Shown in pieces: positions 25,611 through 58,698 of a stretch of DNA of 64,000 nucleotides. How positions within the stretch are numbered: the first letter of the stretch is position 1; each line of letters begins with the position of its first letter. A program made the translations under genes and the position numbers. Origin of the DNA: Pirellula sp. SH-Sr6A (GTDB lineage Bacteria; Planctomycetota; Planctomycetia; Pirellulales; Pirellulaceae); contig NZ_CP011272.1 of the NCBI RefSeq assembly GCF_001610875.1, positions 2,585,988 through 2,649,987 on the forward strand, read 5' to 3'. The notes beneath the pieces are model-generated. The model ran no database searches. It was given only the letters and a program-made list of their open reading frames with translations, and was not told the origin of the DNA.

Positions 25611-25765
25611 ACGTTTCTTATATTGCACATTCTCCCACTCACGCCCAGCCCTTCTCCCCCAAGCCCGAGGCCAAAGGAAGCCAGATAACCACGAACGTTC
25701 CGCGCGACGCGCCCTCGAAGATGACATCCTCGATTCGAAACGCTGCATGGGTTATTGAGATGGGT

Positions 25766-25781
25766 TACAATAGCCACCATG
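25766..25781 (+). promoter_or_regulatory. TACAAT element abutting the start codon of an orphan RHS tip
   Basis: TACAAT (25766-25771) ends seven bases before the ATG at 25779. The same GTTACAATAG..ATGCACCCCCAAAACGCCA arrangement occurs before the tips at 41647, 50300 and 58954. If it acts as a -10 box, the message would be leaderless. A GCTGCA about 17 bases upstream is the conserved but weak -35 candidate. Confidence 0.45.
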
Positions 25782-26459
25782 CACCCCCAAAACGCCACCA
25801 TTGCAACTGCCCAAGAGCCCCGCTACCCGCGTCCCCGCACGGGAGAGCCAAATGTAACCTTCGGTTGCACCGAACCTGCTATCGCTTCTTTGCAGTGCTT
25901 CCATGTACCTTCCATCAACGCCAGCGTTGGTCCGTCCCCAACCGAAGCCACCACTGCCACTTGGCATTACCAAGGAAACCAGCAGTATTCCATATCCGCG
26001 GTATCCACTTCTTCAGGCTCCGTAGCCGAACGCTACGCCTACACCGCCTATGGCCAGCCAACGATCCTCGATGGATCAGGCTCGGTCCTCTCCAGTTCGG
26101 CGATCAACAATCGCTACACGTATACCGGGCGTGAATGGGATCAGACGCTTGCGCTGTACCACTTCCGTGCAAGGTGGATGAGTGGGCTCGCAGGAAGGTT
26201 CATGAGTAGGGATCCGATCGGGTATGAGGGAAGCCCTTCGAATTTATATGAATTTTTAGATTCGAATTTAGGAGATCGCGTTGATCCTTTTGGGCTGTCT
26301 TGGACAACTGCAGGGTTTATCTATCACTACTATTACGGATGGGGAGCGCCAATTGATCTAAGAAGCGTTGGGTTGCATACGGCTTTCTTCGAGAAAACTT
26401 GTGGGGATGCTATCTCGTTTCTTAGAACGTGTTTTAAAATTGCGTTTTCTACGTTTTAG
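25779..26459 (+). CDS. Orphan RHS C-terminal tip, interrupted by an IS
   Basis: 226 residues. A ~70-residue leader (MHPQNATIATAQEPR onward) precedes the RHS core signature: GSVAERYAYTAYGQPTILDG, NRYTYTGREWDQTLALYHFR, ARWMSGLAGRFMSRDPIGYE and VDPFGL. The unique tip after DPFGL (FIYHYYYGWGAPIDLRSVGL) is typical of RHS effectors. From 26425 the frame is inside the IS, so the final residues (RTCFKIAFSTF) are IS-encoded. Joining the sequences across the target duplication would instead end in FLSSCANKVRRKAHV. Without the YD-repeat shell this is a displaced tip, a store of toxin diversity rather than a working effector. Confidence 0.7.
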   Translation: MHPQNATIATAQEPRYPRPRTGEPNVTFGCTEPAIASLQCFHVPSINASVGPSPTEATTATWHYQGNQQYSISAVSTSSGSVAERYAYTAYGQPTILDGSGSVLSSSAINNRYTYTGREWDQTLALYHFRARWMSGLAGRFMSRDPIGYEGSPSNLYEFLDSNLGDRVDPFGLSWTTAGFIYHYYYGWGAPIDLRSVGLHTAFFEKTCGDAISFLRTCFKIAFSTF

Positions 26460-27773: not shown

Positions 27774-27775
27774 GA

Positions 27776-28526: not shown

Positions 28527-31500
28527 TTGAGCCGGCTGACGCAAGTCATCGACGGTCGCGGCACGGAGACTCGCTATGAATACGACGGCCAAGGGCGTGA
28601 GACAACGAAGAAAGCCGCCTACGGCACATCGATCGAAGCCAGAACCGACACGTTTTATGATCTCGCCGGAAACGTTACCGAAGTCCGCCATCCTCGTTAC
28701 TTCGATTCCTCGGACACCGAGGGCTACCAGAAGGCCAAAGAGACTTGGACCTACAATGGCCGAGGATTGGTAGCTAGCCACACCGATGCGACCGGCTCCT
28801 CCATCGCAGCCACCGAATCGTTTACGTATGACCTCGGAGGCCATCAAGCGACACGCACGGACTTTGGCGGCAACGTCTGGACGCGCTACGAAGACTCCTG
28901 CTGCGAAAAGAAGACGGCCAACGCCGATCCACTTGGGCACGGAACCATTGTGAATACCGATTCCAACGGTCGCACAGTCCACACGATCCAGGTATCGGAT
29001 GTGTCGACCCATGTGGGATCGTTCTCGAATCCCACCGATGCAAAGACCCTTTCGGAGTCGACGACCAAGTTCGACGGACGCGGGCGCGTCATCTACCAGA
29101 CGACTTGGCTCTCGGCACGAGGTACCGTCGATCCTGCCAATCCCCCCATCGCAGGGATCGGAGGGGTCTCGCTCTCCGATGGACTCACGACTCAGTATCT
29201 GTACGACGACAACTTGGCCGATGGGGTTGGATTGGATAACTCCACCGGAGTCTCGGTCTCGAAGCTGGGAACCGGAGGTTCCGGAACGTTTAACGTCTCC
29301 CTTTCGAACGCCATCTCCAAGTTGGCTTCCACAGAAGCCAACGGAGGAGCCAATGTGACCTTCAGTTCCACCGCTCCTGGGAAAGCAACCGTTGTCATTA
29401 GCCCAGAAGACGAAATCAGCTTTACCATCTCCGATGCCGCAGGGCGCTCGGTCATGAGCGGCAAGCTCAACAACTACCGGGGATCCGGCTCAACAGCCCT
29501 CAATACGCTGGCAACCTGGAATTGCACGGTCTACGACGCGACCACTTCCTTGTCCGGGTACGGAACCGTCTTAGTCACCAAGTCGGTGGATCCCCAAGGG
29601 AACACGACGGCCAGTTGGACCGATGCGGCAGGGCGCACCTTGCGCAGCATTGACCAGCTTGGCAAGGTTACGACCATGACCTTCGATGCCGCCGGAAACC
29701 AACTGTCGGTTCGCGATCCCAACAATGTGGGCGCGGACATGCTCTACGATGCCCTGGGGCGCAATACCCAACGAACCGATACCAACAGCGCGGTTACCAA
29801 GACCGAATACGACAAAGCCGGAAACGCGATCAAGCAAACCGATGCCAAGAACAAGCATACTTACATCACCTTCGATGCGCGAGGGCGCAGGAAGTCGACC
29901 ACCGATCGGATTAGCGCAGTCACGTCGTTCACCTACACCGCCTTGGGACAATTAGCCTCCCTCACCGATGCAGAGAGCCAAACGACCAGCTACACGTATG
30001 ACTCTCGAGGCTCCAAACTCACAGAAACCTACCCAGATCACACGTCAGGCACCTCCCCTGGCCAAACAGGCTACGGGATCGTCACGTTTGTGTATGACAA
30101 CGCAGGGCGCGTTAAACGCAAACAGGACCAATTGGGCGATACGGTCACCTTCACGTTTGACCTTGCCGGGAGAATGACGACCAAGGATTACCGAACGGCA
30201 GCCAATAGCCCCACGGGAACGATCGCCGATTCGGATACCTTCACCTTCGATCGCGCAGGGCGCATGCTCACGGCCGCGAGCGGCCGTTACAGCAACACCG
30301 TCACCTACACGTTTGACCCAATAGGGCGCAAGGCTACCGAGGCGCTCACCATTGGCGGCCAAACCTACACGATTACCAGTGAATACAATTCCCGAGGGGA
30401 ATTGACCACGGTCACCTACCCCGACAGTTCGATCTCCGAGCGCACCTACCACGCCACAGGCGCTCTGAACCAACTGAAATTAGATGGTTCGACCATTAGC
30501 ACGAGAACCTACGACGATGGCCGTCGCCTCACGGGAGAAACCCTCGGTAACGGAGTCACCGAATCGCGCACCTATGCTAGCGATAACCTCTTAACGGCAA
30601 TTTCGTACGGAGGAACAGGTACATCCATCGGGAACCTGAGTTATACTTGGGATTCGAACAAGAACAAAACATCGGAAACCATCGGCGGAACGATGAGCAA
30701 CTACGGGTTTACTTCAGCAGGCACCAGTTACGACGACGAGGACCGTCTCACCGGCTTCGCCCGTGCTAGCGGAACGTTTACCCAATCTTGGAGTCTTACC
30801 AGTGTGGGTGACTGGAACAGCATCACCACCAATGGCACAGCGCAGAATCGCACCCACGGTCCTACCCACGAGCTGCTCACCGCCGGGGGTCAGAACGTCA
30901 CGACGGATGTGAAGGGGAACATTACCTTGCTGCCTACGACGCTCACGACCAGTGGCGTGGCCATGTCGGTTGGCTATGACTTCGACAACAAGCTCAAGAG
31001 CGCCGATGTGGACAACAACGGCTCGAACGATGTCACGTTCCAGTACGATGCACTGGGCCGAAGGGTAGCGCGGCAAGGAACCTCCGGCTCCTTCGTCTAT
31101 GTGCAGCATGACCAGCAGACGATCGCCGATTACGGATACGGGGATGCTCCAAGCTCTCCAACGCATCGTTACGTATACGCTAGCTACATCGACGAACCGG
31201 TGGTGCGCAAGGCAGCTGGGACCAGCGGAACGATTCACTACTACCACCGCAACCAGCAGTACTCCATCACGGCAATAACCACTTCTTCGGGCTCCGTAGC
31301 CGAACGCTACGCCTACACAGCCTACGGCCAGCCAACCATCCTCGATGGTTCAGGCTCGGTCCTCTCGAGTTCCGCGATTAATAATCGCTACACCTACACG
31401 GGACGTGAATGGGATCAGTCGCTTGGGCTGTATCACTTTAGGGCGAGGTGGATGAGTGGACTGGCAGGAAGGTTTATGGGGAGGGACCCGATCGGGTACT

Positions 31501-32192
31501 TTGGGAGCCCGTTCGGCCTATACCGACAATTTCAAGGGTATGCGTTAGTAGTTTTAGACCCTCACGGAAGTGAAGTAATTACGGCGGGAGCTGTTGGCGT
31601 TGGTGGCGTCATCGTAGCCGGCGGAACATCCACAACAACGGTTATAGTTTCCGGAGGAACATCAACACTTGTGGGAGGTACAACTATAGGAGGTAGCGTC
31701 GGTACAGGTTCGGGAATAATCGGAATCGTTTCTTCCGGTGGAGCAGCGGCAACGGGCGGTGGAACTGCAGCTGCCGTGGGAGGAAGTACTGCTGCTGGAG
31801 GAGGAACGGTCCTCATTAGTGGAGGGCTCGCCACAACAGTTGGTGTTGCCGTTCTGCCCGGTGGCATTCTCGGATACGGCATCTATGCCACCCCTGTTAT
31901 CGGTACTCAAAACTGGCTAGAACCTGGATTGACGCAGGTTGCTTACTACTTCTTCCCATCGAACCATCCGCCTGTACAGACATCGACACAACCTAAGCCA
32001 TTTCCAGTTCCTGTTCCAGTTCCAAAACCCAGGCCGAAATGTGACGACGAAAGGGAACTATGTGAGTTCACTGGAAAATGGGCGCCGATGGATTTTTGTG
32101 AATACAGATGCAGCGACGGTTATGTTTTTACTGTTTACCCACATGTGCACCAGGAGTTTGCATGTGACGCTTACGCACCACGACCTAATTAA
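28527..32192 (+). CDS. RHS/YD-repeat polymorphic toxin, 5'-truncated
   Basis: 1221 residues, opening mid-repeat (SRLTQVIDGRGTETRYEYDG), so the signal and N-terminal shell are missing. About residues 1-870 are YD repeats with DAAGRT, YDALGR and YEYDGQGRET motifs. The RHS-associated core lies at about 905-1000 (GSVAERYAYTAYGQPTILDG, RWMSGLAGRFMGRDPIGYFG, DPHG). The toxin tip has a Gly/Thr/Ser-rich hydrophobic stretch (about 1015-1115), a PVPVPVPKPRPK linker and a ~45-residue domain with five cysteines (CDDERELC, FCEYRC, FACDAY). The YD repeats form a cocoon around the tip. The TTG at 28527 is only the first codon after a stop, so expression is doubtful. The tip region from about 31243 recurs three times downstream. 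Confidence 0.88.
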   Translation: MSRLTQVIDGRGTETRYEYDGQGRETTKKAAYGTSIEARTDTFYDLAGNVTEVRHPRYFDSSDTEGYQKAKETWTYNGRGLVASHTDATGSSIAATESFTYDLGGHQATRTDFGGNVWTRYEDSCCEKKTANADPLGHGTIVNTDSNGRTVHTIQVSDVSTHVGSFSNPTDAKTLSESTTKFDGRGRVIYQTTWLSARGTVDPANPPIAGIGGVSLSDGLTTQYLYDDNLADGVGLDNSTGVSVSKLGTGGSGTFNVSLSNAISKLASTEANGGANVTFSSTAPGKATVVISPEDEISFTISDAAGRSVMSGKLNNYRGSGSTALNTLATWNCTVYDATTSLSGYGTVLVTKSVDPQGNTTASWTDAAGRTLRSIDQLGKVTTMTFDAAGNQLSVRDPNNVGADMLYDALGRNTQRTDTNSAVTKTEYDKAGNAIKQTDAKNKHTYITFDARGRRKSTTDRISAVTSFTYTALGQLASLTDAESQTTSYTYDSRGSKLTETYPDHTSGTSPGQTGYGIVTFVYDNAGRVKRKQDQLGDTVTFTFDLAGRMTTKDYRTAANSPTGTIADSDTFTFDRAGRMLTAASGRYSNTVTYTFDPIGRKATEALTIGGQTYTITSEYNSRGELTTVTYPDSSISERTYHATGALNQLKLDGSTISTRTYDDGRRLTGETLGNGVTESRTYASDNLLTAISYGGTGTSIGNLSYTWDSNKNKTSETIGGTMSNYGFTSAGTSYDDEDRLTGFARASGTFTQSWSLTSVGDWNSITTNGTAQNRTHGPTHELLTAGGQNVTTDVKGNITLLPTTLTTSGVAMSVGYDFDNKLKSADVDNNGSNDVTFQYDALGRRVARQGTSGSFVYVQHDQQTIADYGYGDAPSSPTHRYVYASYIDEPVVRKAAGTSGTIHYYHRNQQYSITAITTSSGSVAERYAYTAYGQPTILDGSGSVLSSSAINNRYTYTGREWDQSLGLYHFRARWMSGLAGRFMGRDPIGYFGSPFGLYRQFQGYALVVLDPHGSEVITAGAVGVGGVIVAGGTSTTTVIVSGGTSTLVGGTTIGGSVGTGSGIIGIVSSGGAAATGGGTAAAVGGSTAAGGGTVLISGGLATTVGVAVLPGGILGYGIYATPVIGTQNWLEPGLTQVAYYFFPSNHPPVQTSTQPKPFPVPVPVPKPRPKCDDERELCEFTGKWAPMDFCEYRCSDGYVFTVYPHVHQEFACDAYAPRPN

Positions 32193-32194
32193 TC

Positions 32195-32710
32195 ATGATT
32201 GAATTCGACGCAATTGGTATTTCACTCGGACAAGGTGAATTCATAGAGCGATTGATGTATTCCAGCGTCAATGGAGTTCTTGTTTGTATTCTTGCTCGTA
32301 AAGGGGATAGGAGAAAACGGTGCTTTGTACGGTCGATAGAGAAAACATTATATGCTGAAGCGAGTCTGCCCTTTGAAGCGGTAGCGTTTGCATTGTGCAG
32401 TTCAAAAATTGTTGCAATCAACCAAGTTGAGTCACTGGTAAATGGCAAGCAACTTTTATGTTCTTTCGAGCCCAATGGCCGTATGGAAAAGACTGTTGGA
32501 GAGGTTACGCTAGGCTTCACTTCACCGAACACGCGTCGAGTATGGGTATCACAGTTTGTTGAGTCAGATTCATCACGACTGACCTGTCGATTTGCTCGCG
32601 AATTAATTCTCGAGTCTGGGGATGTTACAGTTCAATATGCGGTCGGTGAACTCAATATCGATACTGGTTCAATCGACTTGATAAAAGATCTCGCAACTCC
32701 ATTTGCCTAA
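32195..32710 (+). CDS. Candidate immunity protein for the RHS tip, copy 1
   Basis: 171 residues, cytoplasmic-looking, beta-rich, with no signal peptide or membrane helix. It starts two bases after the RHS stop, the classical toxin-immunity arrangement, and the toxin tip and this gene always travel together in the window. The gene is more AT-rich than the YD-repeat region, as is usual for tip/immunity cassettes. I do not recognise an immunity family; the role is inferred from position only. Confidence 0.65.
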   Translation: MIEFDAIGISLGQGEFIERLMYSSVNGVLVCILARKGDRRKRCFVRSIEKTLYAEASLPFEAVAFALCSSKIVAINQVESLVNGKQLLCSFEPNGRMEKTVGEVTLGFTSPNTRRVWVSQFVESDSSRLTCRFARELILESGDVTVQYAVGELNIDTGSIDLIKDLATPFA

Positions 32711-33152: not shown

Positions 33153-34037
33153 TTAGCTCGTGTTGTTTTGGAGTGATACAAGTGCTGGTTCGCTGGTTTT
33201 TGCTTTGCATAAATCACAGCTGAGAGCGCGATTGTGCGCTAACCTCGCAGTTCTCGCTGTTGCTCGCTTCTCTTTAAGGTCCACCGGAACTTTCGCTCCG
33301 GTGCCAAAGTACATCTCGTCGGGTGTCTGCCCTTGAAAGGCAAAATGGGGAACAACCGAATTGTGCTGCTCGACGTAAAAAGCAACAAACTTGCGAACCG
33401 AATTCGCACTATCAAGTTCGTTCAAGTACAACCACTGGTGCTTCAGCTGACGCCACCAGGCTTCGATCATACTGTTCGATTCCACAATATCGACCTGCGC
33501 AAGAATACGTTGGATGGTGCCATCAGAAACAAGCTCATTTACCGAGCCATTCACGTTTTCAACGCCAGAGTCCATGACAGCAGAGGGTACTGTGTTTTCG
33601 GGGAGTGCCTTGGCTGCTTCCTTGAGGAGTTCCGCTGTCGTACTTGTTTCAAAGGTGTCATTCAATCTCCATGCGAGAATGCGGCGCGAAAAGTTGTCGA
33701 GAATTGCGTGAAGGTACAAGCGGCTGCCATCGAGCAATCGAACGATGGTCGTGTCGACATGCCAATACTCATTTGGCTTCGTAGCTCGTAATCCGATTCG
33801 AGGTTTCGGTGGGTAGATGCGTTTGCGAGACCGGATCCAATTTCCACTTTGAATCGCTCGGTACCAAGTCGAAGTACAAGCGTAGACCTTTCCCAAGCGC
33901 GCGGCCAACCGAGCGATTGATCCGACGCTGAGATGACGATAGTCTTCAGACTGCACCATCGATCGCATTTCGGAGCGTTCCGTCGCAGTCATTTGCCCCG
34001 GCAAAGATCTGGGACAAGACGAGACATCATCGAGTCC
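33153..34037 (-). pseudogene. DDE transposase, residues 145-438 only (copy 1)
   Basis: The fragment keeps the whole DD35E catalytic domain but lost the first 144 codons, including the helix-turn-helix. The break at 34037/34038 is the edge of the IS91-like element, exactly after ..GAGTCC. Without its start the gene is presumed inactive, although a TTG at 34004 leaves an open frame of 283 codons. Confidence 0.85.
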
Positions 34038-34050
34038 ACCAATAAGAACT

Positions 34051-34110
34051 AAACCAACTCATTAAACGGATCCGCCGATGCGGTGGCACGGGGATCGCCG
34101 AAGTTGGTTT
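34051..34110. other. Putative origin end (oriIS-like) of the IS91-like element
   Basis: Just inside the transposase-distal end, AAACCAACT (34051-34059) pairs with AGTTGGTTT (34102-34110), enclosing a smaller hairpin CCGCcgatGCGG (34072-34083). IS91-type origins carry such nested hairpins next to the nicking site. The same structure recurs at 35993, 44644 and 53298. The stretch up to 34362 has no gene. Confidence 0.5.
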
Positions 34111-34362
34111 TCCCTGCATTTTCTCTATGGTTTTTTTGTGGGGGTAATTCCCTGCGAGTCTATTGATCAAGGGGCCGCAAGATGGTGGCCAGAGAGTCGC
34201 TTGCGAGCAAGAAGATGCACCGAGTGCTTCTTTTGGTCCATTTCAGGTCATGTAACGACGGACCTTCAGGCAACTCGCTTTGATTCGCACGCAACAGAGA
34301 TGCGATTAGGTGAGGTAGCGAGCAGCTCGAACGTGATGGTTTCTGAACGAGAGCATTCATCA

Positions 34363-35913
34363 TTAGATTTCCGGTAATGGAAGATTCACCGAGACGTAAC
34401 AGCAGGTTGCCCCGAAGCGAAGGGATGCTTCGTTGGTTTGCAGATTCTCTCCATCACACAGGTCATCGCTGCAACACTGTACAACCGTCCATGCTAAGAG
34501 CTCCTTTACAGCTAGTGCCCGCTTCCAGTTGCCAAGCAACCCTTGCTTCGGAGCAAAGCTCTCAAGTCGTGCTTTCGATCGGATCAATTGATCGAGTGTG
34601 GTGGGTGCCTTCGAGTATTGTTCGATCGCATGCTCTACCCGGTGGATGAACTCCCAAGTCTCCATGCGATCGCGATACCCTTCCAATCGCATCCCCGGCG
34701 TACCGCACCGCAAGCACTTGGGCCGATTATCGATCTTCGGAAGCTCAAGCTCTTGAAGTCTCGCGGATGGGGGAAGCGACGCATGTCGCTTCCCTAGGGA
34801 ATCAGCATTGTGCTTGGCCAAGAGCAAGCGGACTCTTTGAAGCGTCTCCTTGCGCCCTTTCCCTTGAAAGAGACCTGCATAGCGCACGCGATGCACGTTG
34901 CTCGGAACGATGTGGAGCAAGAACCGGCGAACGAACTCTTCTCCCTCCATGGTCTCCTCGACCGATTTGTTGGTTCGGTAATCCCATTGCCGAATGGTAA
35001 CGTGCGTCCCGTTGTCTTCGGCGATCCGGCCATTGGAGATCGCTGCCCCTTGGATATAGTCCGAAAGATAACGGGCGCAGCCCAACTGCGTTTGCAGTTC
35101 ATCCGGAGTGATTTGCGCATCGGCTTTCCAGTTCTTTTGCGCTAGAGGCTCAAGCCACCGATGGAACGAGTCTCGGTCTTGAACCCCTTCGAATTCCATC
35201 TCTTGGGGAATGTCGAGTTTTCCTTGATCGAAGAGGATTTTCAATCCCCGTAAGAACTTCTTTTGAAAGAGGGCTGCTAAGACTTCTTCTTGGATGCCTG
35301 GTGCATCCGGAGGGATCGGGATCCAGCAGGGTTTGGTACTCGCATCCCCAGTGGAGAGCGAGACGCCACCGGAGGTCATCATGGCGTGGATATGCACATG
35401 GGTCAGCATGCGCTGCCCCCAAGTGTGCAACGTGAGAATAATCCCCGGCTTGCAGCCGAATTCTCGTTGAGCGATCTCGAGCAACGTCTTTTGCGATCTT
35501 CGAAAGAAGAGCTGATACACAGCGCTCGGATTGGCTCGGATCAGAGGATTGAGCTCATGCGGGACGGTAAAGACCGTGTGGTAGTAGGTGGTGGGGAGAT
35601 TCCACGCGATAATCTGCTGTAGCCACGCTTTGCGCTTGAGCCAACCGCAGTTGGGACAGTGCCGATCATGGCACTGGCTGTAGAGAATGCGCCCTTGCTG
35701 GCATGTCTCGCATCCATAGTAGGTGGAACCGAAACTCCCACGACGGCAGTCGAGGAGTTTATCCAGCACACGGCGTTCATGGAACGGAACATGATGACTG
35801 AAGCGAAAGGATTTGGAGTAGCGTAGCAGGACCGATTGCACGGTATGCGAACTAGCCGTATGGATTCGCACCGTAGGCAACAGATCCTGCATAGGTTGGA
35901 TCGAACAGTGCAT
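34363..35913 (-). CDS. IS91-family HUH (Y2) transposase, copy a
   Basis: 516 residues, a rolling-circle transposase. An N-terminal zinc-binding domain (about 68-89, CETC..CHDRHCPNC) is followed by the HUH metal site HVHIHAMMTSGG (about 172-183) and the two catalytic tyrosines in ARYLSDYIQGAAISN (Y282 and Y286). The FLLHIVPSNVHRVRYAGLF segment (about 331-349) is also characteristic. All key residues are intact and the frame is open in every copy. Confidence 0.93.
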   Translation of the reverse strand: MHCSIQPMQDLLPTVRIHTASSHTVQSVLLRYSKSFRFSHHVPFHERRVLDKLLDCRRGSFGSTYYGCETCQQGRILYSQCHDRHCPNCGWLKRKAWLQQIIAWNLPTTYYHTVFTVPHELNPLIRANPSAVYQLFFRRSQKTLLEIAQREFGCKPGIILTLHTWGQRMLTHVHIHAMMTSGGVSLSTGDASTKPCWIPIPPDAPGIQEEVLAALFQKKFLRGLKILFDQGKLDIPQEMEFEGVQDRDSFHRWLEPLAQKNWKADAQITPDELQTQLGCARYLSDYIQGAAISNGRIAEDNGTHVTIRQWDYRTNKSVEETMEGEEFVRRFLLHIVPSNVHRVRYAGLFQGKGRKETLQRVRLLLAKHNADSLGKRHASLPPSARLQELELPKIDNRPKCLRCGTPGMRLEGYRDRMETWEFIHRVEHAIEQYSKAPTTLDQLIRSKARLESFAPKQGLLGNWKRALAVKELLAWTVVQCCSDDLCDGENLQTNEASLRFGATCCYVSVNLPLPEI

Positions 35914-35979
35914 GGATAGCTGTAGGGTAGTTCGACCGCTTTCTTAGCTTGCGATGTTTCTTGGAGAATTTCCGAGTTC

Positions 35980-37921
35980 ACCAATAAGAACTAAACCAAC
36001 TCATTAAACGGATCCGCCGATGCGGTGGCACGGGGATCGCCGAAGTTGGTTTTCCCTGCATTTTCTCTATGGTTTTTTTGTGGGGGTAATTCCCTGCGAG
36101 TCTATTGATCAAGGGGCCGCAAGATGGTGGCCAGAGAGTCGCTTGCGAGCAAGAAGATGCACCGAGTGCTTCTTTTGGTCCATTTCAGGTCATGTAACGA
36201 CGGACCTTCAGGCAACTCGCTTTGATTCGCACGCAACAGAGATGCGATTAGGTGAGGTAGCGAGCAGCTCGAACGTGATGGTTTCTGAACGAGAGCATTC
36301 ATCATTAGATTTCCGGTAATGGAAGATTCACCGAGACGTAACAGCAGGTTGCCCCGAAGCGAAGGGATGCTTCGTTGGTTTGCAGATTCTCTCCATCACA
36401 CAGGTCATCGCTGCAACACTGTACAACCGTCCATGCTAAGAGCTCCTTTACAGCTAGTGCCCGCTTCCAGTTGCCAAGCAACCCTTGCTTCGGAGCAAAG
36501 CTCTCAAGTCGTGCTTTCGATCGGATCAATTGATCGAGTGTGGTGGGTGCCTTCGAGTATTGTTCGATCGCATGCTCTACCCGGTGGATGAACTCCCAAG
36601 TCTCCATGCGATCGCGATACCCTTCCAATCGCATCCCCGGCGTACCGCACCGCAAGCACTTGGGCCGATTATCGATCTTCGGAAGCTCAAGCTCTTGAAG
36701 TCTCGCGGATGGGGGAAGCGACGCATGTCGCTTCCCTAGGGAATCAGCATTGTGCTTGGCCAAGAGCAAGCGGACTCTTTGAAGCGTCTCCTTGCGCCCT
36801 TTCCCTTGAAAGAGACCTGCATAGCGCACGCGATGCACGTTGCTCGGAACGATGTGGAGCAAGAACCGGCGAACGAACTCTTCTCCCTCCATGGTCTCCT
36901 CGACCGATTTGTTGGTTCGGTAATCCCATTGCCGAATGGTAACGTGCGTCCCGTTGTCTTCGGCGATCCGGCCATTGGAGATCGCTGCCCCTTGGATATA
37001 GTCCGAAAGATAACGGGCGCAGCCCAACTGCGTTTGCAGTTCATCCGGAGTGATTTGCGCATCGGCTTTCCAGTTCTTTTGCGCTAGAGGCTCAAGCCAC
37101 CGATGGAACGAGTCTCGGTCTTGAACCCCTTCGAATTCCATCTCTTGGGGAATGTCGAGTTTTCCTTGATCGAAGAGGATTTTCAATCCCCGTAAGAACT
37201 TCTTTTGAAAGAGGGCTGCTAAGACTTCTTCTTGGATGCCTGGTGCATCCGGAGGGATCGGGATCCAGCAGGGTTTGGTACTCGCATCCCCAGTGGAGAG
37301 CGAGACGCCACCGGAGGTCATCATGGCGTGGATATGCACATGGGTCAGCATGCGCTGCCCCCAAGTGTGCAACGTGAGAATAATCCCCGGCTTGCAGCCG
37401 AATTCTCGTTGAGCGATCTCGAGCAACGTCTTTTGCGATCTTCGAAAGAAGAGCTGATACACAGCGCTCGGATTGGCTCGGATCAGAGGATTGAGCTCAT
37501 GCGGGACGGTAAAGACCGTGTGGTAGTAGGTGGTGGGGAGATTCCACGCGATAATCTGCTGTAGCCACGCTTTGCGCTTGAGCCAACCGCAGTTGGGACA
37601 GTGCCGATCATGGCACTGGCTGTAGAGAATGCGCCCTTGCTGGCATGTCTCGCATCCATAGTAGGTGGAACCGAAACTCCCACGACGGCAGTCGAGGAGT
37701 TTATCCAGCACACGGCGTTCATGGAACGGAACATGATGACTGAAGCGAAAGGATTTGGAGTAGCGTAGCAGGACCGATTGCACGGTATGCGAACTAGCCG
37801 TATGGATTCGCACCGTAGGCAACAGATCCTGCATAGGTTGGATCGAACAGTGCATGGATAGCTGTAGGGTAGTTCGACCGCTTTCTTAGCTTGCGATGTT
37901 TCTTGGAGAATTTCCGAGTTC
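35980..37921 (-). mobile_element. IS91-like element, copy b (1,942 bp)
   Basis: Directly abuts copy a, head to tail. Its origin end touches GAAC on the minus strand (complement of GTTC, 35976-35979), which is copy a's own terminal sequence. GAAC is the standard IS91 target, so copy b may have inserted beside copy a. Units 2 and 3 carry a single copy (44631-46572 and 53285-55226). Confidence 0.85.
36305..37855 (-). CDS. IS91-family HUH (Y2) transposase, copy b
   Basis: Same 516-residue protein as copy a. It sits 193 bases from, and divergent to, the primase-like ATPase gene; in units 2 and 3 the single transposase copy has this same spacing. Confidence 0.92.
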   Translation of the reverse strand: MHCSIQPMQDLLPTVRIHTASSHTVQSVLLRYSKSFRFSHHVPFHERRVLDKLLDCRRGSFGSTYYGCETCQQGRILYSQCHDRHCPNCGWLKRKAWLQQIIAWNLPTTYYHTVFTVPHELNPLIRANPSAVYQLFFRRSQKTLLEIAQREFGCKPGIILTLHTWGQRMLTHVHIHAMMTSGGVSLSTGDASTKPCWIPIPPDAPGIQEEVLAALFQKKFLRGLKILFDQGKLDIPQEMEFEGVQDRDSFHRWLEPLAQKNWKADAQITPDELQTQLGCARYLSDYIQGAAISNGRIAEDNGTHVTIRQWDYRTNKSVEETMEGEEFVRRFLLHIVPSNVHRVRYAGLFQGKGRKETLQRVRLLLAKHNADSLGKRHASLPPSARLQELELPKIDNRPKCLRCGTPGMRLEGYRDRMETWEFIHRVEHAIEQYSKAPTTLDQLIRSKARLESFAPKQGLLGNWKRALAVKELLAWTVVQCCSDDLCDGENLQTNEASLRFGATCCYVSVNLPLPEI

Positions 37922-38048: not shown

Positions 38049-40136
38049 ATGTTGCTCTCAACGAAAACGAATGCGAATCCGTTTCCACTGCTGGCTGCAT
38101 TCGAAGCGGATCCGTGGAAAGCGACCGCCGAACATTACGCACGCTGTGTGACGGACAAGATTCTGGCCATGGCCTCCTATGGCTTGGAACTCGAGGAAGA
38201 AGCTTTGCGCACCCTGGGGATCGGGTTTTCCGATCGGAGTCTGGGGAACCAGTTGCCCTCGAATCAGACGGCAGCGGGTCGAAGGATCCGAGAGCGACTC
38301 ATCCAGATGGGTCTTTACAAGGAGAATGGCCGCGAGGCGCTACGTGGTTACATTACCATCCCCCTGGTGGACGAAGAGCATCGCATCACAGGCTTCGAAG
38401 GCTATCGGCTGAGCAACAGCGGAGCCGTCATTGACAAGCTCCGCGTGGGAACCGGCACAAGACTTCAGGATTCAGGCGTCAGGCTTCAGGAAGACTCCAT
38501 CCCAACCCGAAACGTCAGCGAGGGACAGGCTGCTGACACGCTGGCAACGGAGACACTGGCACCCAAGATTCCTTCACAGCCGGGCAGCCCTTCACAAGAA
38601 GAGGATCCCTCGCTCACGCAACGGGTTGCGATGCAGCCTGCTACTCCAGCCTCCGAAATCTCCGTCGACGCTAGCAGCGTGACTATCACTCGCGAGGATC
38701 GCAGCTACAAGATCCGTGGCCTCGAGAAGAACATGTCTTCCCTGAGCCTGCGCGTCTCGATCGCCGTCTCCCGACTCGAACGGATGCATCTCGATACGGT
38801 CGATCTCATGCGCTCTAGCGCTCGGCAAGCCTTCGTGAAAGCTGCCGCTTTAGAACTCTTCTGCGAAGAGGAGACGATCAAGGTCGATCTAGGAAGAATC
38901 CTCCTTCAACTGGAAGATTTACGGAACCTTCAAATCGAAGCCGCCAAACGCATCGGTCCTGCCATTCCGGCTATGACCGAAGCCCAGCAGGAAGAAGCCA
39001 TGCAGTTGCTGCGTTCTCCCAATCTGATCGAACGGATTGTGCACGATCTCGATGCGTGTGGCATGGTCGGAGAAGCATCCAATAAGCTCGTAGGCTACCT
39101 GGCTGCCGTCAGTCGCAAGCTACCCACCCCGTTGGCTCTCCTGATCCGATCCTCCAGCGCGGCCGGGAAGACAACGCTCATGGAAACCATCTTGGCCATG
39201 GTCCCACCGGAAGAAGTCTTGCGATTGAGCAACCTCACTTGCCAATCGCTCTATTACCTCGATAGCGATCAGCTTCGCCATAAGACCTTAGCCATTAGCG
39301 AAGACCAAGGTCTTTCCGAATCTGCGTATGCCTTAAAACTCCTTCAAAGCGAAGGGAAGCTGACCCATGCCACGGTAGTCCGTGGCAACGATGGCCGGAG
39401 CGTTACCCAATTGCACAGCGTAGAAGGCCCCATTCAGCTCATGATCACCTCGACGGCTCGGGATGTGGACGAAGAGTTAGCCAATCGCTGCTTGATCCTT
39501 ACCGTTGATGAATCGATCGAACAGACCAAGGCCATTCAAGCGCGCCAGCGTCTGCTGCAGACGCGCGAGGGATTGCAACGGCAGTCGCAAGTGGCAGCCA
39601 TCCGAACCCTGCATCACCATGCGCAGCGTTTGCTCCGACCCTTGCAGGTCTTGAACCCCTTGGTCGACTCTTTGGAGTTCGTTTGCGATCGACTGCGCAA
39701 CCGCCGCGATCATGCCAAGTACTTGAGTCTCATTCAAGCGATCGCCTTGCTACACCAGCACCAGAGAGTCATCCACACCGAAGAGGATGGAACCGAGTGG
39801 ATCGAAGTCCAAGAGTCCGATATCGCGCTCGCCGATCGGCTAATGGACAAGCTCTTGAAGCAGTCGCTTAGTGAGTTAGCACCGCAGACTGAGCAGTGCC
39901 TCCACTTGGTGCAAGAGTTTGTGGCGAAAGGCTGCCGGGCCGCGGCAGCGGCTAGCCCGGCCGAGCAAGCTATTCTTCGGCAACGGTTCCGATTTACCCG
40001 TCGCTCGTTTCGCGAATCGGTCGGTTGGAGCGACAACCAAGTGCGCACCCACTTGGACCGACTGGTCCAGCTCGAGCATTTGATTGTCCATCGCGGCAAG
40101 CAGGGGGCAACCTACGTCTACCAGTTGGCCGATTAG
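38049..40136 (+). CDS. Primase/helicase-like P-loop ATPase of the mobile unit
   Basis: 695 residues. The N-terminal part (about 50-125, LGIGFSDRSLGNQLP, RERLIQMGLY, YITIPLVDEEHRITGFEGYR) resembles the region after the zinc finger in DnaG-like plasmid and phage primases. A low-complexity linker (about 130-200) follows. The ATPase has Walker A-like SSSAAGKTT (about 368-376, with the first Gly replaced by Ser), a HKTLAISEDQ Walker B-like strand and an ELANRC arginine. A winged-helix-like C-terminus (SFRESVGWSDNQVRTHLDRL) ends it. No CHC2 finger or Toprim acidic triad is visible, so priming activity is uncertain; a helicase or loader role in replicating the element is the inference. Confidence 0.75.
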   Translation: MLLSTKTNANPFPLLAAFEADPWKATAEHYARCVTDKILAMASYGLELEEEALRTLGIGFSDRSLGNQLPSNQTAAGRRIRERLIQMGLYKENGREALRGYITIPLVDEEHRITGFEGYRLSNSGAVIDKLRVGTGTRLQDSGVRLQEDSIPTRNVSEGQAADTLATETLAPKIPSQPGSPSQEEDPSLTQRVAMQPATPASEISVDASSVTITREDRSYKIRGLEKNMSSLSLRVSIAVSRLERMHLDTVDLMRSSARQAFVKAAALELFCEEETIKVDLGRILLQLEDLRNLQIEAAKRIGPAIPAMTEAQQEEAMQLLRSPNLIERIVHDLDACGMVGEASNKLVGYLAAVSRKLPTPLALLIRSSSAAGKTTLMETILAMVPPEEVLRLSNLTCQSLYYLDSDQLRHKTLAISEDQGLSESAYALKLLQSEGKLTHATVVRGNDGRSVTQLHSVEGPIQLMITSTARDVDEELANRCLILTVDESIEQTKAIQARQRLLQTREGLQRQSQVAAIRTLHHHAQRLLRPLQVLNPLVDSLEFVCDRLRNRRDHAKYLSLIQAIALLHQHQRVIHTEEDGTEWIEVQESDIALADRLMDKLLKQSLSELAPQTEQCLHLVQEFVAKGCRAAAAASPAEQAILRQRFRFTRRSFRESVGWSDNQVRTHLDRLVQLEHLIVHRGKQGATYVYQLAD
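38498..38633 (+). repeat. Inverted REP-like repeat inside the primase-like gene
   Basis: CATCCCAACCCGAAACGTCA (38498 on, continuing GCGAGGGACA) is mirrored by the complement of 38604-38633 (CATCGCAACCCGTTGCGTGA, then GCGAGGGATC). The pair, ~106 bases apart, encodes the NVSEGQAA and PSLTQRVAM parts of the linker. It resembles the ACCCGAAACGTCAGCGAGGG palindromic repeats common in Pirellulaceae genomes. Confidence 0.6.
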
Positions 40137-41633: not shown

Positions 41634-41649
41634 TACAATAGTCGCTATG
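41634..41649 (+). promoter_or_regulatory. Leader promoter candidate, unit 1
   Basis: TACAAT (41634-41639) seven bases before the leader ATG at 41647, identical in units 2 (50287) and 3 (58941) and conserved at 25766. Downstream leader sequence holds three small inverted repeats: CCCGCACGGG, GCAACCttcGGTTGC and AACGCCAGCGTT. Confidence 0.4.
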
Positions 41650-42785
41650 CACCCCCAAAACGCCATGCTTCAAACATCTCCTGAGCTCCGCTCCGCGCGC
41701 CCCGCACGGGAGAGCCAACTGCAACCTTCGGTTGCACCGAAGCGACTATCCCTTCTTCGCAGTGCTTCCATGTGCATTCCATCAACGCCAGCGTTGGTCC
41801 GTCCCCTGCCGAAGCCACCACTGCCACTTGGCACTACCACCGCAACCAGCAGTACTCCATCACGGCAATAACCACTTCTTCGGGCTCCGTAGCCGAACGC
41901 TACGCCTACACAGCCTACGGCCAGCCAACCATCCTCGATGGTTCAGGCTCGGTCCTCTCGAGTTCCGCGATTAATAATCGCTACACCTACACGGGACGTG
42001 AATGGGATCAGTCGCTTGGGCTGTATCACTTTAGGGCGAGGTGGATGAGTGGACTGGCAGGAAGGTTTATGGGGAGGGACCCGATCGGGTACTTTGGGAG
42101 CCCGTTCGGCCTATACCGACAATTTCAAGGGTATGCGTTAGTAGTTTTAGACCCTCACGGAAGTGAAGTAATTACGGCGGGAGCTGTTGGCGTTGGTGGC
42201 GTCATCGTAGCCGGCGGAACATCCACAACAACGGTTATAGTTTCCGGAGGAACATCAACACTTGTGGGAGGTACAACTATAGGAGGTAGCGTCGGTACAG
42301 GTTCGGGAATAATCGGAATCGTTTCTTCCGGTGGAGCAGCGGCAACGGGCGGTGGAACTGCAGCTGCCGTGGGAGGAAGTACTGCTGCTGGAGGAGGAAC
42401 GGTCCTCATTAGTGGAGGGCTCGCCACAACAGTTGGTGTTGCCGTTCTGCCCGGTGGCATTCTCGGATACGGCATCTATGCCACCCCTGTTATCGGTACT
42501 CAAAACTGGCTAGAACCTGGATTGACGCAGGTTGCTTACTACTTCTTCCCATCGAACCATCCGCCTGTACAGACATCGACACAACCTAAGCCATTTCCAG
42601 TTCCTGTTCCAGTTCCAAAACCCAGGCCGAAATGTGACGACGAAAGGGAACTATGTGAGTTCACTGGAAAATGGGCGCCGATGGATTTTTGTGAATACAG
42701 ATGCAGCGACGGTTATGTTTTTACTGTTTACCCACATGTGCACCAGGAGTTTGCATGTGACGCTTACGCACCACGACCTAATTAA
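41647..42785 (+). pseudogene. Leader plus RHS tip, frameshifted copy (unit 1)
   Basis: Same as the tips of units 2 and 3, except that one C is missing at 41700-41703 (four Cs against five). This throws the leader ATG out of frame after 18 codons. The tip itself is open from a GTG at 41772 (337 residues), so translation of the toxin part would need that start. The toxin tip sequence is otherwise unchanged. Confidence 0.75.
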
Positions 42786-42787: not shown

Positions 42788-43303
42788 ATGATTGAATTCG
42801 ACGCAATTGGTATTTCACTCGGACAAGGTGAATTCATAGAGCGATTGATGTATTCCAGCGTCAATGGAGTTCTTGTTTGTATTCTTGCTCGTAAAGGGGA
42901 TAGGAGAAAACGGTGCTTTGTACGGTCGATAGAGAAAACATTATATGCTGAAGCGAGTCTGCCCTTTGAAGCGGTAGCGTTTGCATTGTGCAGTTCAAAA
43001 ATTGTTGCAATCAACCAAGTTGAGTCACTGGTAAATGGCAAGCAACTTTTATGTTCTTTCGAGCCCAATGGCCGTATGGAAAAGACTGTTGGAGAGGTTA
43101 CGCTAGGCTTCACTTCACCGAACACGCGTCGAGTATGGGTATCACAGTTTGTTGAGTCAGATTCATCACGACTGACCTGTCGATTTGCTCGCGAATTAAT
43201 TCTCGAGTCTGGGGATGTTACAGTTCAATATGCGGTCGGTGAACTCAATATCGATACTGGTTCAATCGACTTGATAAAAGATCTCGCAACTCCATTTGCC
43301 TAA
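42788..43303 (+). CDS. Candidate immunity protein, copy 2
   Basis: Identical 171-residue protein to copy 1, again starting two bases after the tip stop. Confidence 0.65.
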   Translation: MIEFDAIGISLGQGEFIERLMYSSVNGVLVCILARKGDRRKRCFVRSIEKTLYAEASLPFEAVAFALCSSKIVAINQVESLVNGKQLLCSFEPNGRMEKTVGEVTLGFTSPNTRRVWVSQFVESDSSRLTCRFARELILESGDVTVQYAVGELNIDTGSIDLIKDLATPFA

Positions 43304-49027: not shown

Positions 49028-50044
49028 ATGTCACCCCCTTCGTTGTCAGCCCTCATGGAAGCGTATTTCGTTGATCTGCGAGTAGTGAATTGGACGGAAG
49101 CGACCTTGGAGAGGAGAAAAAACTCGCTGGGTCGCTTCGTCCGTTGGCTCACCGAGCGTGAGATCCATACTCTTTCGGAAATCACACCAGAGATTCTCGC
49201 AGCGTATCAAAGGAGCTTGCTCCATATCGGGAACTTGCGGACACGCAAACCCCTGCAAGCCTCAACGCGGGCTTCCTATGTCCATGCCGTGTCCCATTGG
49301 CTGCAGTGGGCTTGTTTGGGCAAGCATATCCCCTTCAATCCAGCGGCAGGGATCGAGCTTCCTAAAGCCGAATATCGACTCCCGGCGAGTTTTTTAAGCC
49401 AGAGCGAGGTCGAGCATGTCATCAACCAACCCGACGTGAGCACGAAGATTGGGATTCGGGATCGCAGTGTCTTGGAGATTCTCTATAGCAGTGCTATTCG
49501 AAGAAGCGAGCTTCTCAAGCTGGAGATTCAGGATATTGATCGCGCCAGGCGATTGCTTCATATCCGGCAGGGGAAAGGACACAAGGATCGCTTTGTACCG
49601 ATCGGAGTGCGCGCCTTGGATTGGTTGACCAAGTACCTCCAAGACGTAAGGCCCTGGCTCTTGAGCGGCGGGGGCTGCAAACGGAATTGGATGCATCCGA
49701 GGAAATTCTCAGTTTCCTTGAGCGAGCAAGAGACGCAGGTGGTGATCCTATGCCACAACGGAGGGGCGATGCACCCGGTGAATCTCTCGGCCATGGTTCG
49801 GCAGTATGTTCGGCAAGCGGGGATAACGAAGAAGGGCGCATGCCACATGTTTCGTCACACAGCAGCAACGCTGATGATGGAGAATGGAGCCGATCTGCGA
49901 TCGATCCAAACGCTCTTGGGTCATGCCAGCTTGAATACCACGCAAATCTATGCCCACGTCACGCTAGATCGCTTGAGAGCGGTCCACGACGCGATGCATC
50001 CGGCCAAGCCGGACCAAGCGAACGCGCCTAGTCGGGCTGACTAG
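49028..50044 (+). CDS. Tyrosine recombinase, unit 2
   Basis: Identical to the unit 1 protein, with the R-K-H-R-H-Y set intact. The spacer to the ATPase is two bases longer than in unit 1 because of C-tract length. Confidence 0.92.
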   Translation: MSPPSLSALMEAYFVDLRVVNWTEATLERRKNSLGRFVRWLTEREIHTLSEITPEILAAYQRSLLHIGNLRTRKPLQASTRASYVHAVSHWLQWACLGKHIPFNPAAGIELPKAEYRLPASFLSQSEVEHVINQPDVSTKIGIRDRSVLEILYSSAIRRSELLKLEIQDIDRARRLLHIRQGKGHKDRFVPIGVRALDWLTKYLQDVRPWLLSGGGCKRNWMHPRKFSVSLSEQETQVVILCHNGGAMHPVNLSAMVRQYVRQAGITKKGACHMFRHTAATLMMENGADLRSIQTLLGHASLNTTQIYAHVTLDRLRAVHDAMHPAKPDQANAPSRAD

Positions 50045-50299: not shown

Positions 50300-51439
50300 A
50301 TGCACCCCCAAAACGCCATGCTTCAAACATCTCCTGAGCTCCGCTCCGCGCGCCCCCGCACGGGAGAGCCAACTGCAACCTTCGGTTGCACCGAAGCGAC
50401 TATCCCTTCTTCGCAGTGCTTCCATGTGCATTCCATCAACGCCAGCGTTGGTCCGTCCCCTGCCGAAGCCACCACTGCCACTTGGCACTACCACCGCAAC
50501 CAGCAGTACTCCATCACGGCAATAACCACTTCTTCGGGCTCCGTAGCCGAACGCTACGCCTACACAGCCTACGGCCAGCCAACCATCCTCGATGGTTCAG
50601 GCTCGGTCCTCTCGAGTTCCGCGATTAATAATCGCTACACCTACACGGGACGTGAATGGGATCAGTCGCTTGGGCTGTATCACTTTAGGGCGAGGTGGAT
50701 GAGTGGACTGGCAGGAAGGTTTATGGGGAGGGACCCGATCGGGTACTTTGGGAGCCCGTTCGGCCTATACCGACAATTTCAAGGGTATGCGTTAGTAGTT
50801 TTAGACCCTCACGGAAGTGAAGTAATTACGGCGGGAGCTGTTGGCGTTGGTGGCGTCATCGTAGCCGGCGGAACATCCACAACAACGGTTATAGTTTCCG
50901 GAGGAACATCAACACTTGTGGGAGGTACAACTATAGGAGGTAGCGTCGGTACAGGTTCGGGAATAATCGGAATCGTTTCTTCCGGTGGAGCAGCGGCAAC
51001 GGGCGGTGGAACTGCAGCTGCCGTGGGAGGAAGTACTGCTGCTGGAGGAGGAACGGTCCTCATTAGTGGAGGGCTCGCCACAACAGTTGGTGTTGCCGTT
51101 CTGCCCGGTGGCATTCTCGGATACGGCATCTATGCCACCCCTGTTATCGGTACTCAAAACTGGCTAGAACCTGGATTGACGCAGGTTGCTTACTACTTCT
51201 TCCCATCGAACCATCCGCCTGTACAGACATCGACACAACCTAAGCCATTTCCAGTTCCTGTTCCAGTTCCAAAACCCAGGCCGAAATGTGACGACGAAAG
51301 GGAACTATGTGAGTTCACTGGAAAATGGGCGCCGATGGATTTTTGTGAATACAGATGCAGCGACGGTTATGTTTTTACTGTTTACCCACATGTGCACCAG
51401 GAGTTTGCATGTGACGCTTACGCACCACGACCTAATTAA
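50300..51439 (+). CDS. Leader-initiated orphan RHS tip, unit 2
   Basis: 379 residues from ATG 50300 (MHPQNAMLQTSPELR). A ~68-residue leader joins in frame to the RHS core at NQQYSITAITTSSGS and runs to the cysteine-rich toxin tip. The start is chosen because the diverged tip at 25779 has its ATG at the same place with in-frame conservation, and TACAAT precedes both. An upstream GTG at 50099 would give 446 residues but adds sequence not shared with 25779. There is no signal peptide and no YD shell, so delivery would need another RHS protein or recombination. Confidence 0.7.
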   Translation: MHPQNAMLQTSPELRSARPRTGEPTATFGCTEATIPSSQCFHVHSINASVGPSPAEATTATWHYHRNQQYSITAITTSSGSVAERYAYTAYGQPTILDGSGSVLSSSAINNRYTYTGREWDQSLGLYHFRARWMSGLAGRFMGRDPIGYFGSPFGLYRQFQGYALVVLDPHGSEVITAGAVGVGGVIVAGGTSTTTVIVSGGTSTLVGGTTIGGSVGTGSGIIGIVSSGGAAATGGGTAAAVGGSTAAGGGTVLISGGLATTVGVAVLPGGILGYGIYATPVIGTQNWLEPGLTQVAYYFFPSNHPPVQTSTQPKPFPVPVPVPKPRPKCDDERELCEFTGKWAPMDFCEYRCSDGYVFTVYPHVHQEFACDAYAPRPN

Positions 51440-51441: not shown

Positions 51442-51957
51442 ATGATTGAATTCGACGCAATTGGTATTTCACTCGGACAAGGTGAATTCATAGAGCGATT
51501 GATGTATTCCAGCGTCAATGGAGTTCTTGTTTGTATTCTTGCTCGTAAAGGGGATAGGAGAAAACGGTGCTTTGTACGGTCGATAGAGAAAACATTATAT
51601 GCTGAAGCGAGTCTGCCCTTTGAAGCGGTAGCGTTTGCATTGTGCAGTTCAAAAATTGTTGCAATCAACCAAGTTGAGTCACTGGTAAATGGCAAGCAAC
51701 TTTTATGTTCTTTCGAGCCCAATGGCCGTATGGAAAAGACTGTTGGAGAGGTTACGCTAGGCTTCACTTCACCGAACACGCGTCGAGTATGGGTATCACA
51801 GTTTGTTGAGTCAGATTCATCACGACTGACCTGTCGATTTGCTCGCGAATTAATTCTCGAGTCTGGGGATGTTACAGTTCAATATGCGGTCGGTGAACTC
51901 AATATCGATACTGGTTCAATCGACTTGATAAAAGATCTCGCAACTCCATTTGCCTAA
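51442..51957 (+). CDS. Candidate immunity protein, copy 3
   Basis: Identical to the other copies; two-base gap after the tip stop. Confidence 0.65.
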   Translation: MIEFDAIGISLGQGEFIERLMYSSVNGVLVCILARKGDRRKRCFVRSIEKTLYAEASLPFEAVAFALCSSKIVAINQVESLVNGKQLLCSFEPNGRMEKTVGEVTLGFTSPNTRRVWVSQFVESDSSRLTCRFARELILESGDVTVQYAVGELNIDTGSIDLIKDLATPFA

Positions 51958-57681: not shown

Positions 57682-58698
57682 ATGTCACCCCCTTCGTTGT
57701 CAGCCCTCATGGAAGCGTATTTCGTTGATCTGCGAGTAGTGAATTGGACGGAAGCGACCTTGGAGAGGAGAAAAAACTCGCTGGGTCGCTTCGTCCGTTG
57801 GCTCACCGAGCGTGAGATCCATACTCTTTCGGAAATCACACCAGAGATTCTCGCAGCGTATCAAAGGAGCTTGCTCCATATCGGGAACTTGCGGACACGC
57901 AAACCCCTGCAAGCCTCAACGCGGGCTTCCTATGTCCATGCCGTGTCCCATTGGCTGCAGTGGGCTTGTTTGGGCAAGCATATCCCCTTCAATCCAGCGG
58001 CAGGGATCGAGCTTCCTAAAGCCGAATATCGACTCCCGGCGAGTTTTTTAAGCCAGAGCGAGGTCGAGCATGTCATCAACCAACCCGACGTGAGCACGAA
58101 GATTGGGATTCGGGATCGCAGTGTCTTGGAGATTCTCTATAGCAGTGCTATTCGAAGAAGCGAGCTTCTCAAGCTGGAGATTCAGGATATTGATCGCGCC
58201 AGGCGATTGCTTCATATCCGGCAGGGGAAAGGACACAAGGATCGCTTTGTACCGATCGGAGTGCGCGCCTTGGATTGGTTGACCAAGTACCTCCAAGACG
58301 TAAGGCCCTGGCTCTTGAGCGGCGGGGGCTGCAAACGGAATTGGATGCATCCGAGGAAATTCTCAGTTTCCTTGAGCGAGCAAGAGACGCAGGTGGTGAT
58401 CCTATGCCACAACGGAGGGGCGATGCACCCGGTGAATCTCTCGGCCATGGTTCGGCAGTATGTTCGGCAAGCGGGGATAACGAAGAAGGGCGCATGCCAC
58501 ATGTTTCGTCACACAGCAGCAACGCTGATGATGGAGAATGGAGCCGATCTGCGATCGATCCAAACGCTCTTGGGTCATGCCAGCTTGAATACCACGCAAA
58601 TCTATGCCCACGTCACGCTAGATCGCTTGAGAGCGGTCCACGACGCGATGCATCCGGCCAAGCCGGACCAAGCGAACGCGCCTAGTCGGGCTGACTAG
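57682..58698 (+). CDS. Tyrosine recombinase, unit 3
   Basis: Identical to the other copies, catalytic residues intact. Confidence 0.92.
   Translation: MSPPSLSALMEAYFVDLRVVNWTEATLERRKNSLGRFVRWLTEREIHTLSEITPEILAAYQRSLLHIGNLRTRKPLQASTRASYVHAVSHWLQWACLGKHIPFNPAAGIELPKAEYRLPASFLSQSEVEHVINQPDVSTKIGIRDRSVLEILYSSAIRRSELLKLEIQDIDRARRLLHIRQGKGHKDRFVPIGVRALDWLTKYLQDVRPWLLSGGGCKRNWMHPRKFSVSLSEQETQVVILCHNGGAMHPVNLSAMVRQYVRQAGITKKGACHMFRHTAATLMMENGADLRSIQTLLGHASLNTTQIYAHVTLDRLRAVHDAMHPAKPDQANAPSRAD

Follow-up and report, generated by a model that had tools for sequence, protein, structure and literature searches.

Rhs toxin-tip and candidate immunity cassettes beside a tyrosine recombinase in Pirellula sp. 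SH-Sr6A: a putative integron-like system for tip swapping

In integrons, compact cassettes form an array next to a tyrosine recombinase and are linked through a repeated site; the first of them is expressed and the rest are kept in store. Among polymorphic toxins, the available parts of the reports on the enterobacterial rhs-CT/rhsI and cdiA-CT/cdiI loci describe displaced tips with immunity genes behind the main gene, a DPxG motif at the tip boundary, and main genes that can gain an orphan tip by recombination (PMC3967940; PMC3150448). Tip exchange in Salmonella is attributed, in the accessible text, to homologous recombination over a shared region of 522 bp, and the orphans usually lack start signals (PMC3967940). 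Polymorphic toxin systems with solo cassettes combine a constant body, a variable C-terminal toxin, a 3' immunity gene and spare cassettes, and XerC/D recombinases were noted near some polyimmunity loci; the portions at hand describe neither a dedicated recombinase nor a fixed exchange site for tip swapping (PMC3482391). The rAID systems of Bacteroidales, as far as the consulted sections go, carry, behind a tyrosine recombinase, immunity genes of the same orientation separated by conserved sequences; what they store are orphan immunity genes (PMC12247911).

The locus described here lies in a window of 64,000 nucleotides, the whole stretch of DNA that was analysed, from the single 6.53-Mb contig that forms the genome of Pirellula sp. 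SH-Sr6A (Table 1). Its Rhs gene encodes YD/RHS repeats (PF05593, 1.4e-40) and an Rhs-associated core (TIGR03696, 39.4 bits, cut-off 32.5), and after the DPHG motif follows a tip of 207 residues. In this family of planctomycetes a constant core is followed by unrelated tips after DPxG; the cage of the window gene recurs at about 72% identity with different tips at the loci L064, L065 and L067. The first 105 residues of the tip are 31% Gly and 15% Thr, and a single charged residue occurs in the first 117. The composition after DPHG bears out the anatomy given in the earlier note, namely a hydrophobic Gly/Thr-rich part, a Pro-Val-Pro linker and an end with five cysteines. The hydrophobicity peak of 1.6 is borderline for a membrane segment (Kyte-Doolittle, 19-residue windows, every fourth listed). 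It is possible, though we hold this only tentatively, that the hydrophobic part aids entry into the membrane or target envelope and that the Cys-rich end is the part recognized by the antidote.

Table 1 Features of the window (positions are those of the window)
Feature	Position	Strand	Remarks
Further orphan leader and Rhs core, different short tip	25755..26459	+	
Rhs protein of 1221 aa with TTG start; 5' part missing compared with intact relatives	28527..32192	+	RHS_repeat and Rhs_assc_core matches
21-bp att-like site where cassettes join (codons YH-RNQQ)	31240..31260	+	common to cage-linked core, orphan leader-core junction and L070 orphan
DPHG motif, end of Rhs core and start of variable tip	31557..31568	+	
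Gly/Thr-rich hydrophobic part of tip	31569..31883	+	
Pro/Val-rich (Pro-Val-Pro) linker	31968..32039	+	
Cys-rich tip end, 5 Cys	32040..32192	+	related sequence in L029 for the final 36 residues
171-residue candidate immunity protein, copy 1	32195..32710	+	2 nt 3' of tip stop codon
IS91-type element, inserted in IS3-like transposase gene	34031..35979	-	transposase 34363-35913
Second IS91-type element, head-to-tail	35973..37921	-	transposase 36305-37855
695-residue protein of recombinase module, GKT-containing	38049..40136	+	P-loop-like by eye only; PHROG 12057, without assigned function
Tyrosine recombinase, 338 aa	40375..41391	+	PF00589
Leader of orphan cassette copy 2	41647..41840	+	one base shorter than in copies 3 and 4, hence out of frame
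Orphan Rhs core and tip, copy 2	41841..42785	+	
171-residue gene, copy 2	42788..43303	+	
Tyrosine recombinase, second copy	49028..50044	+	
Leader, core and tip, copy 3	50300..51439	+	leader of 65 codons from ATG, in frame
171-residue gene, copy 3	51442..51957	+	
Tyrosine recombinase, third copy	57682..58698	+	
Leader, core and tip, copy 4	58954..60093	+	leader in frame
171-residue gene, copy 4	60096..60611	+	

No export signal was found on the window carrier, whose cage begins about 895 residues inside the intact relatives L064 (a frame of 2097 residues with a start that is signal-peptide-like by eye) and L065 (2114 residues, its frame running off the contig). For residues 1-878 of L064 the window contained no colinear match; only weak repeat-like hits were obtained. 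Since the window gene lacks these N-terminal residues, its tip is probably stored rather than deployed, and is probably not exported from this locus. Next to the 5' break of the gene lies a pair encoding PIN-like and helix-turn-helix proteins (27312-28234, minus strand; label by eye), possibly a toxin-antitoxin module.

The tip and the following 171-residue gene likely stand in a toxin-immunity relation. The earlier note had proposed this from a fixed pairing in four copies. The count was correct and the relation itself stands as likely, but the stated reason does not: the stretch 31240-32720 is 100% identical in all four copies, which thus represent one event and not four independent pairings, so that the copy number was rejected as proof of functional linkage. 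More informative is an independent, diverged pair in L029 (QWPJ01000098.1, genome G082, same genus). Here the tip end is 53% identical over the aligned part, and the homologue of the 171-residue gene is intact (176 residues, 40% identity) with a start codon that overlaps the stop of the tip. The stretch encoding WAPMDFCEY differs between the window and L029 by four silent changes and no replacement. What remains in L029 is a tip without Rhs core, hydrophobic part and first two cysteines, located after an Rpn-like gene fragment (by eye); remnant though it is, it shows at the level of sequence that the presumed antidote and the Cys-rich end have stayed together. The position of the gene directly 3' of the tip, after a gap of 2 nt in the window and with overlapping codons in L029, marks it as an immunity candidate on position only.

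The 171-residue gene was matched in four of 241 family genomes at E<=0.01, two of them real (the own genome and G082); the other two, weak partial matches of 22-24% identity, were dropped. It was found in two of 396 genomes of the order (own and G082) and in one of 352 genomes of the phylum (own), on no plasmid and in no viral contig, and a wider contig scan returned one locus, the same G082 contig. The tip gave matches in 11 of the 241 family genomes at E<=0.05, two of them real (own and G082); the other nine were dropped as chance after local comparison and the reading of two. On plasmids and phages its hits reached only E>=4. A wide occurrence of the 171-residue gene without the tip had been named beforehand as the finding that would speak against the pair; both strong matches among the family genomes carry the tip.

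That the 171-residue protein has no recognized family was confirmed, with no Pfam match at E<=5 and only insignificant matches in NCBIfam, and the tip gave the same result in both collections at these settings. Searches of PHROGs and PADLOC with the tip and its neighbour yielded no significant match, and the best hits among sequences of solved structures (E 1.4 and 0.73) were not meaningful. AlphaFold2 models reached a mean pLDDT of 37.3 for the 171-residue protein and 56.0 for the Cys-rich end, both from two-row alignments and too low for a fold search. In a selection test on the 171-residue gene dS was saturated; differences by codon position were 87/53/113 of 171 codons.

In the same loci that carry sibling tips, an ORF of at least 85 codons starting between -30 and +60 nt from the tip stop follows 50 of 59 tips, compared with 601 of 1180 random positions (51%), so that a gene after each tip is modestly more frequent than chance. 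A looser count, with a following ORF for 57 of 58 sibling tips, was rejected as proof of immunity genes because 93% of random positions pass it. This modest excess, the single event behind the four copies, the truncated cage and the lack of a toxin family match would also suit a tip that is a degenerate Rhs C-terminus, with a neighbour that is unrelated and was copied with it in a single recent duplication. We regard that explanation as very unlikely in view of the diverged pair in L029, with its intact 176-residue homologue and the exclusively silent changes over WAPMDFCEY, and consider the gene pair probably a stored cassette of toxin tip and antidote.

As a side observation, the number of cysteines was odd in 42 of 48 tips taken from 48 non-redundant core-linked Rhs genes (binomial p 1e-7), including the window tip (31569-32189). 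Among the controls, odd numbers occurred for cysteine in 23 of 48 next ORFs, for seven other residues in 18 to 26 of the 48 tips, and for cysteine in 32 of 48 when the core was included. A subset of these data had first drawn attention to the pattern, which suggests that each tip has disulfide bonds and a single unpaired cysteine.

The four copies differ in what precedes them. Copy 1 continues upstream into a long piece of Rhs cage; copies 2 to 4 consist of about 100 core codons behind a non-Rhs leader and have the layout of orphan rhs cassettes, with core fragment, tip and candidate immunity gene but no cage. Each orphan copy sits behind a gene for the 695-residue protein and a tyrosine recombinase, an arrangement that this part of the earlier note does not mention. 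Copies 2, 3 and 4 follow one another with a period of 8654 bp; the spacing from copy 1 to copy 2 is 10593 bp, and these two copies are 100% identical across 4740 bp. The array is known from the assembly, and an assembly error as its source was set aside as less likely, the same layout being present with diverged copies in other genomes. In copies 3 and 4 the reading frame of the leader is open for 65 codons and passes into that of the core. This continuity is broken in copy 2, which is shifted, and in one leader of genome G102, which has a 4-nt gap. Leaders are conserved within a genome or clade and carry an ATG after a TTACAAT- or TAGAAT-like box. The difference between the leaders of copies 2 and 3 (near 41700 and 50350) is one base in a C run, either real or a sequencing error, and possible hairpins in leaders were seen by eye only. 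Further observations concern the surroundings. The orphan at 25755 has a tip of only 54 residues with a transposase gene (26449-27234, minus strand; label by eye) at its end; the tip was probably cut by the insertion. A tandem repeat of about 240 bp occurs near orphan cassettes at several sites of the genome (window 19550-21313 and 25363-25598; L047, L049 and L050).

The 338-residue recombinase matches PF00589 (2.2e-38). Its nearest NCBIfam subfamily is XerC (NF002331), at 328.6 bits below the cut-off of 371, and the integron integrase profile TIGR02249 (IntI) gave 118 bits, below the cut-off of 265. At E<=1e-40, 26 of the 241 family genomes have a relative of the 695-residue protein. In and around these matches 34 locus records were examined, with 35 recombinase copies that retain the C-terminus, the three identical window copies included. 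An Rhs core lies within about 2 kb downstream of 28 of the 35 by tblastn or profile; for 24, tblastn places a same-strand Rhs core or cage end at <=2 kb (L140 weak). The downstream core passes the Rhs_assc_core cut-off for the copies in L161 and L153 and stays below it for those in L155 and L157. Behind five copies (L152, L156, L158 twice and L160) the core motif was recognized by regex or eye only, and NCBIfam at E<=0.01 gave no Rhs core in L152, L158 and L160. Both copies in L159 (2 of 35) have no Rhs core and are followed by a non-Rhs gene. In the own genome, with 16 tyrosine recombinase matches, the four copies of this recombinase precede a core within 2.5 kb and the other 12 do not. Arrays of cassettes sharing the site beside the recombinase were recognized by sequence only in L129, L142, L144, L166 and L167.

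Two side observations belong here. In L159 (10739-11419 and 17840-19150) two recombinase modules are followed by the same signal-peptide-like leader with different C-termini, one of them with a Hint-like GGCFVAGTPV motif (by eye), and the module may also serve non-Rhs toxins. Genes or fragments of the Rpn family (PD-(D/E)XK-like) recur beside cassettes (window 62426-63481; L129 4558-5490; L029 4290-4440 and 5917-6816; L140 5394-6323); the window gene matches Rpn models below their cut-offs, and the other labels were given by eye.

The orphan cassettes share one junction. Among 56 distinct core copies, 26 continue upstream into a cage and 30 do not, and in all 30 cage-less cores the resemblance to Rhs ends no more than about three codons from Y-H|R-N-Q-Q-Y-S (upstream residues by eye); eight further core hits were unplaceable and stand outside the 56. 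Sixteen core copies found later comprised ten orphans with the same junction, four cage-linked copies, one orphan with a longer core in L151 and one unclear case (L151, 12398). Behind the recombinase this junction occurs in five genera (g1, g45, g51, g55 and g60). The site is not universal in the sequences compared: in L151 the orphan that follows the recombinase retains some 75 further residues of the cage, and with a second recombinase clade (G215, G216 and G170) the retained core begins later, near RDPIG and thus nearer to the core end. When the junction types (18 and 6 rows) are placed on the recombinase tree, a single change accounts for each, and none of 500 shuffles was as low; the two clades are supported by 93/91 and 89/84. 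For these labels L140 (weak core) and L151 (longer core) were put in the main group by locus, not by a measured junction, and the RDP group was labelled by eye. Since genus g60 holds both junction types, the type follows the clade of the enzyme and not the host genus.

From these comparisons, a cassette in this planctomycete family can be delimited as a variable tip preceded by the final ~100 Rhs core codons and usually followed closely by a gene; its junction, Y-H | R-N-Q-Q-Y-S, occupies a fixed position within the coding sequence of the core. As the loci read, it sits either behind an Rhs cage, in what would be the deployable form, or behind a short leader, often just 3' of the 695-residue protein and the recombinase, in what would be the stored form.

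Exchange points were mapped on 18 stretches from four genomes (own, G102, G206 and G209). Three cases of a cage-linked and a leader-linked copy with a common tip were obtained, in the window, G209 and G206, and in all three the pair agrees from the junction onward: the own-genome pair with 100% identity over 4740 bp, the G209 pair without difference from +1 to +899 (97.2% over 2846 bp) and the G206 pair with 100% over 879 bp. On the upstream side, the orphan equals the leader of another orphan without difference for 200 nt in G209 and G206 and for 60 nt in the window, the window leader being compared with L070, a locus of the own genome whose module is the same (99.65% over 6077 bp) but whose tip differs. 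Within this genome, window positions 31240-42049 compared with L070 thus form a mosaic, copy 2 being an L070-like recombinase module joined within 21 bp to the tip of copy 1. Counted from the R codon, the three intervals of exchange are -8 to +12, +1 to +13 and 0 to +16, each 13-21 bp long.

These products have to be weighed against the ordinary biology of orphan Rhs genes, in which cassettes move by homologous recombination between cores and the recombinase module would be a passenger inserted in rhs loci by chance. Precedents exist, as far as the sources at hand go, in the orphan rhs-CT/rhsI modules and the main-orphan fusion of Salmonella, formed over the 522-bp region (PMC3967940), and in orphan modules as a general trait of CDI/Rhs loci (PMC3150448); in G102, moreover, some orphan cores succeed one another without a recombinase between them. 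Homologous recombination near the core edge could by chance give the same products, since there is no homology left of the site, and only three shared-tip pairs bear on the swapping model. Yet all three exchange points fall into the same 13-21 bp at one end of a homologous core of about 300 bp. With exchange uniform along 300 bp, three such placements would be rare, in the order of a few in ten thousand as a rough product from few cases without a formal test. The junction codon is also constant over five genera and tracks the recombinase clade, not the host genus. Homologous recombination with a passenger module is hence considered unlikely, and exchange at a fixed site is preferred.

The IS91-type elements of the window offer another driver. 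The transposase at 36305-37855 belongs to the IS91 family, Y2 type (NF033538, 281.7 bits, cut-off 125), and one-ended rolling-circle transposition could have captured and amplified the neighbouring cassette, the recombinase being incidental. The 8654-bp repeat includes such an element, two of them lie head to tail, and an IS91-type gene is found divergently upstream of the 695-residue gene in 12 of the 34 locus records. The left end of the window array, in contrast, is the core site (31240) and no IS91 end, for which reason IS91 alone was rejected as the bound of the array, and the arrays of G209 and G206 gave no IS91 match at E<=1e-3. As a general explanation transposition is therefore highly doubtful; an IS91-type element could have driven the amplification in the window.

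With reasonable confidence, then, the tip and the 171-residue gene may be read as one Rhs toxin-immunity cassette of an integron-like system in which the linked recombinase exchanges tips at a fixed site. In the proposed mechanism, the recombinase would cut and join at the core site. If the site of the cage-linked gene recombined with that of the following stored cassette, a circle (core-tip-immunity-recombinase-leader) would be set free and the following tip would become joined in frame to the cage; integration would be the reverse. Cassettes would pass through such circles, the one behind the cage being in use, and old tips with their antidotes would be kept behind the new one, as in an integron. 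The storage of old tips fits the 46 clusters formed by 58 complete core-linked tips and the orphan arrays of G102 without intervening recombinase. In the window, the cassette was multiplied (8654-bp unit, three recombinase copies and four antidote copies) behind a 5'-truncated Rhs gene and is probably stored or decaying, with antidotes that may still be usable.

Compared with the described systems, the planctomycete cassettes resemble those of integrons in that a recombinase adjoins an array with a repeated site, and a logic of first expressed and others stored is inferred here. Unlike in integrons, the recombinase is not IntI by profile, Rhs tips are the content of the cassettes seen, the site falls within the reading frame of the toxin, and many units have their own recombinase. 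The Salmonella orphans, in the accessible portion of their description, differ by the absence of such a linked recombinase, of one fixed junction ~100 codons before the tip and of leaders with an ATG that, in those examined here, is mostly in frame (PMC3967940). With rAID the planctomycete loci share a recombinase followed by co-oriented genes with conserved intervening sequences. An array of immunity genes without toxins, the mark of rAID, was not found, the cassettes carrying tips; and unlike in rAID, so far as the sections seen describe it, tip and following gene would move together and could fuse to a cage (PMC12247911). The tip-swapping system would thus amount to integron logic built into a polymorphic toxin gene, by analogy and with a putative recombination step. 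A literature search among open-licence papers did not find it in print.

In its widest form, a dedicated toxin-switching system is proposed in which the recombinase and its 695-residue partner excise and insert tip-immunity cassettes at a fixed in-frame site, so that the weapon would be changed in one step and the former antidotes kept, in many genera of one planctomycete family; we give this even chances. The swapping of polymorphic toxin tips is only partly understood, and a linked recombinase with a fixed site would, if true, make it a programmed and testable switch, for which a site sequence and an enzyme are now named. It would tie toxin diversification to integron-like storage of cassettes and would allow many unknown toxin-antidote pairs to be found downstream of one recombinase.
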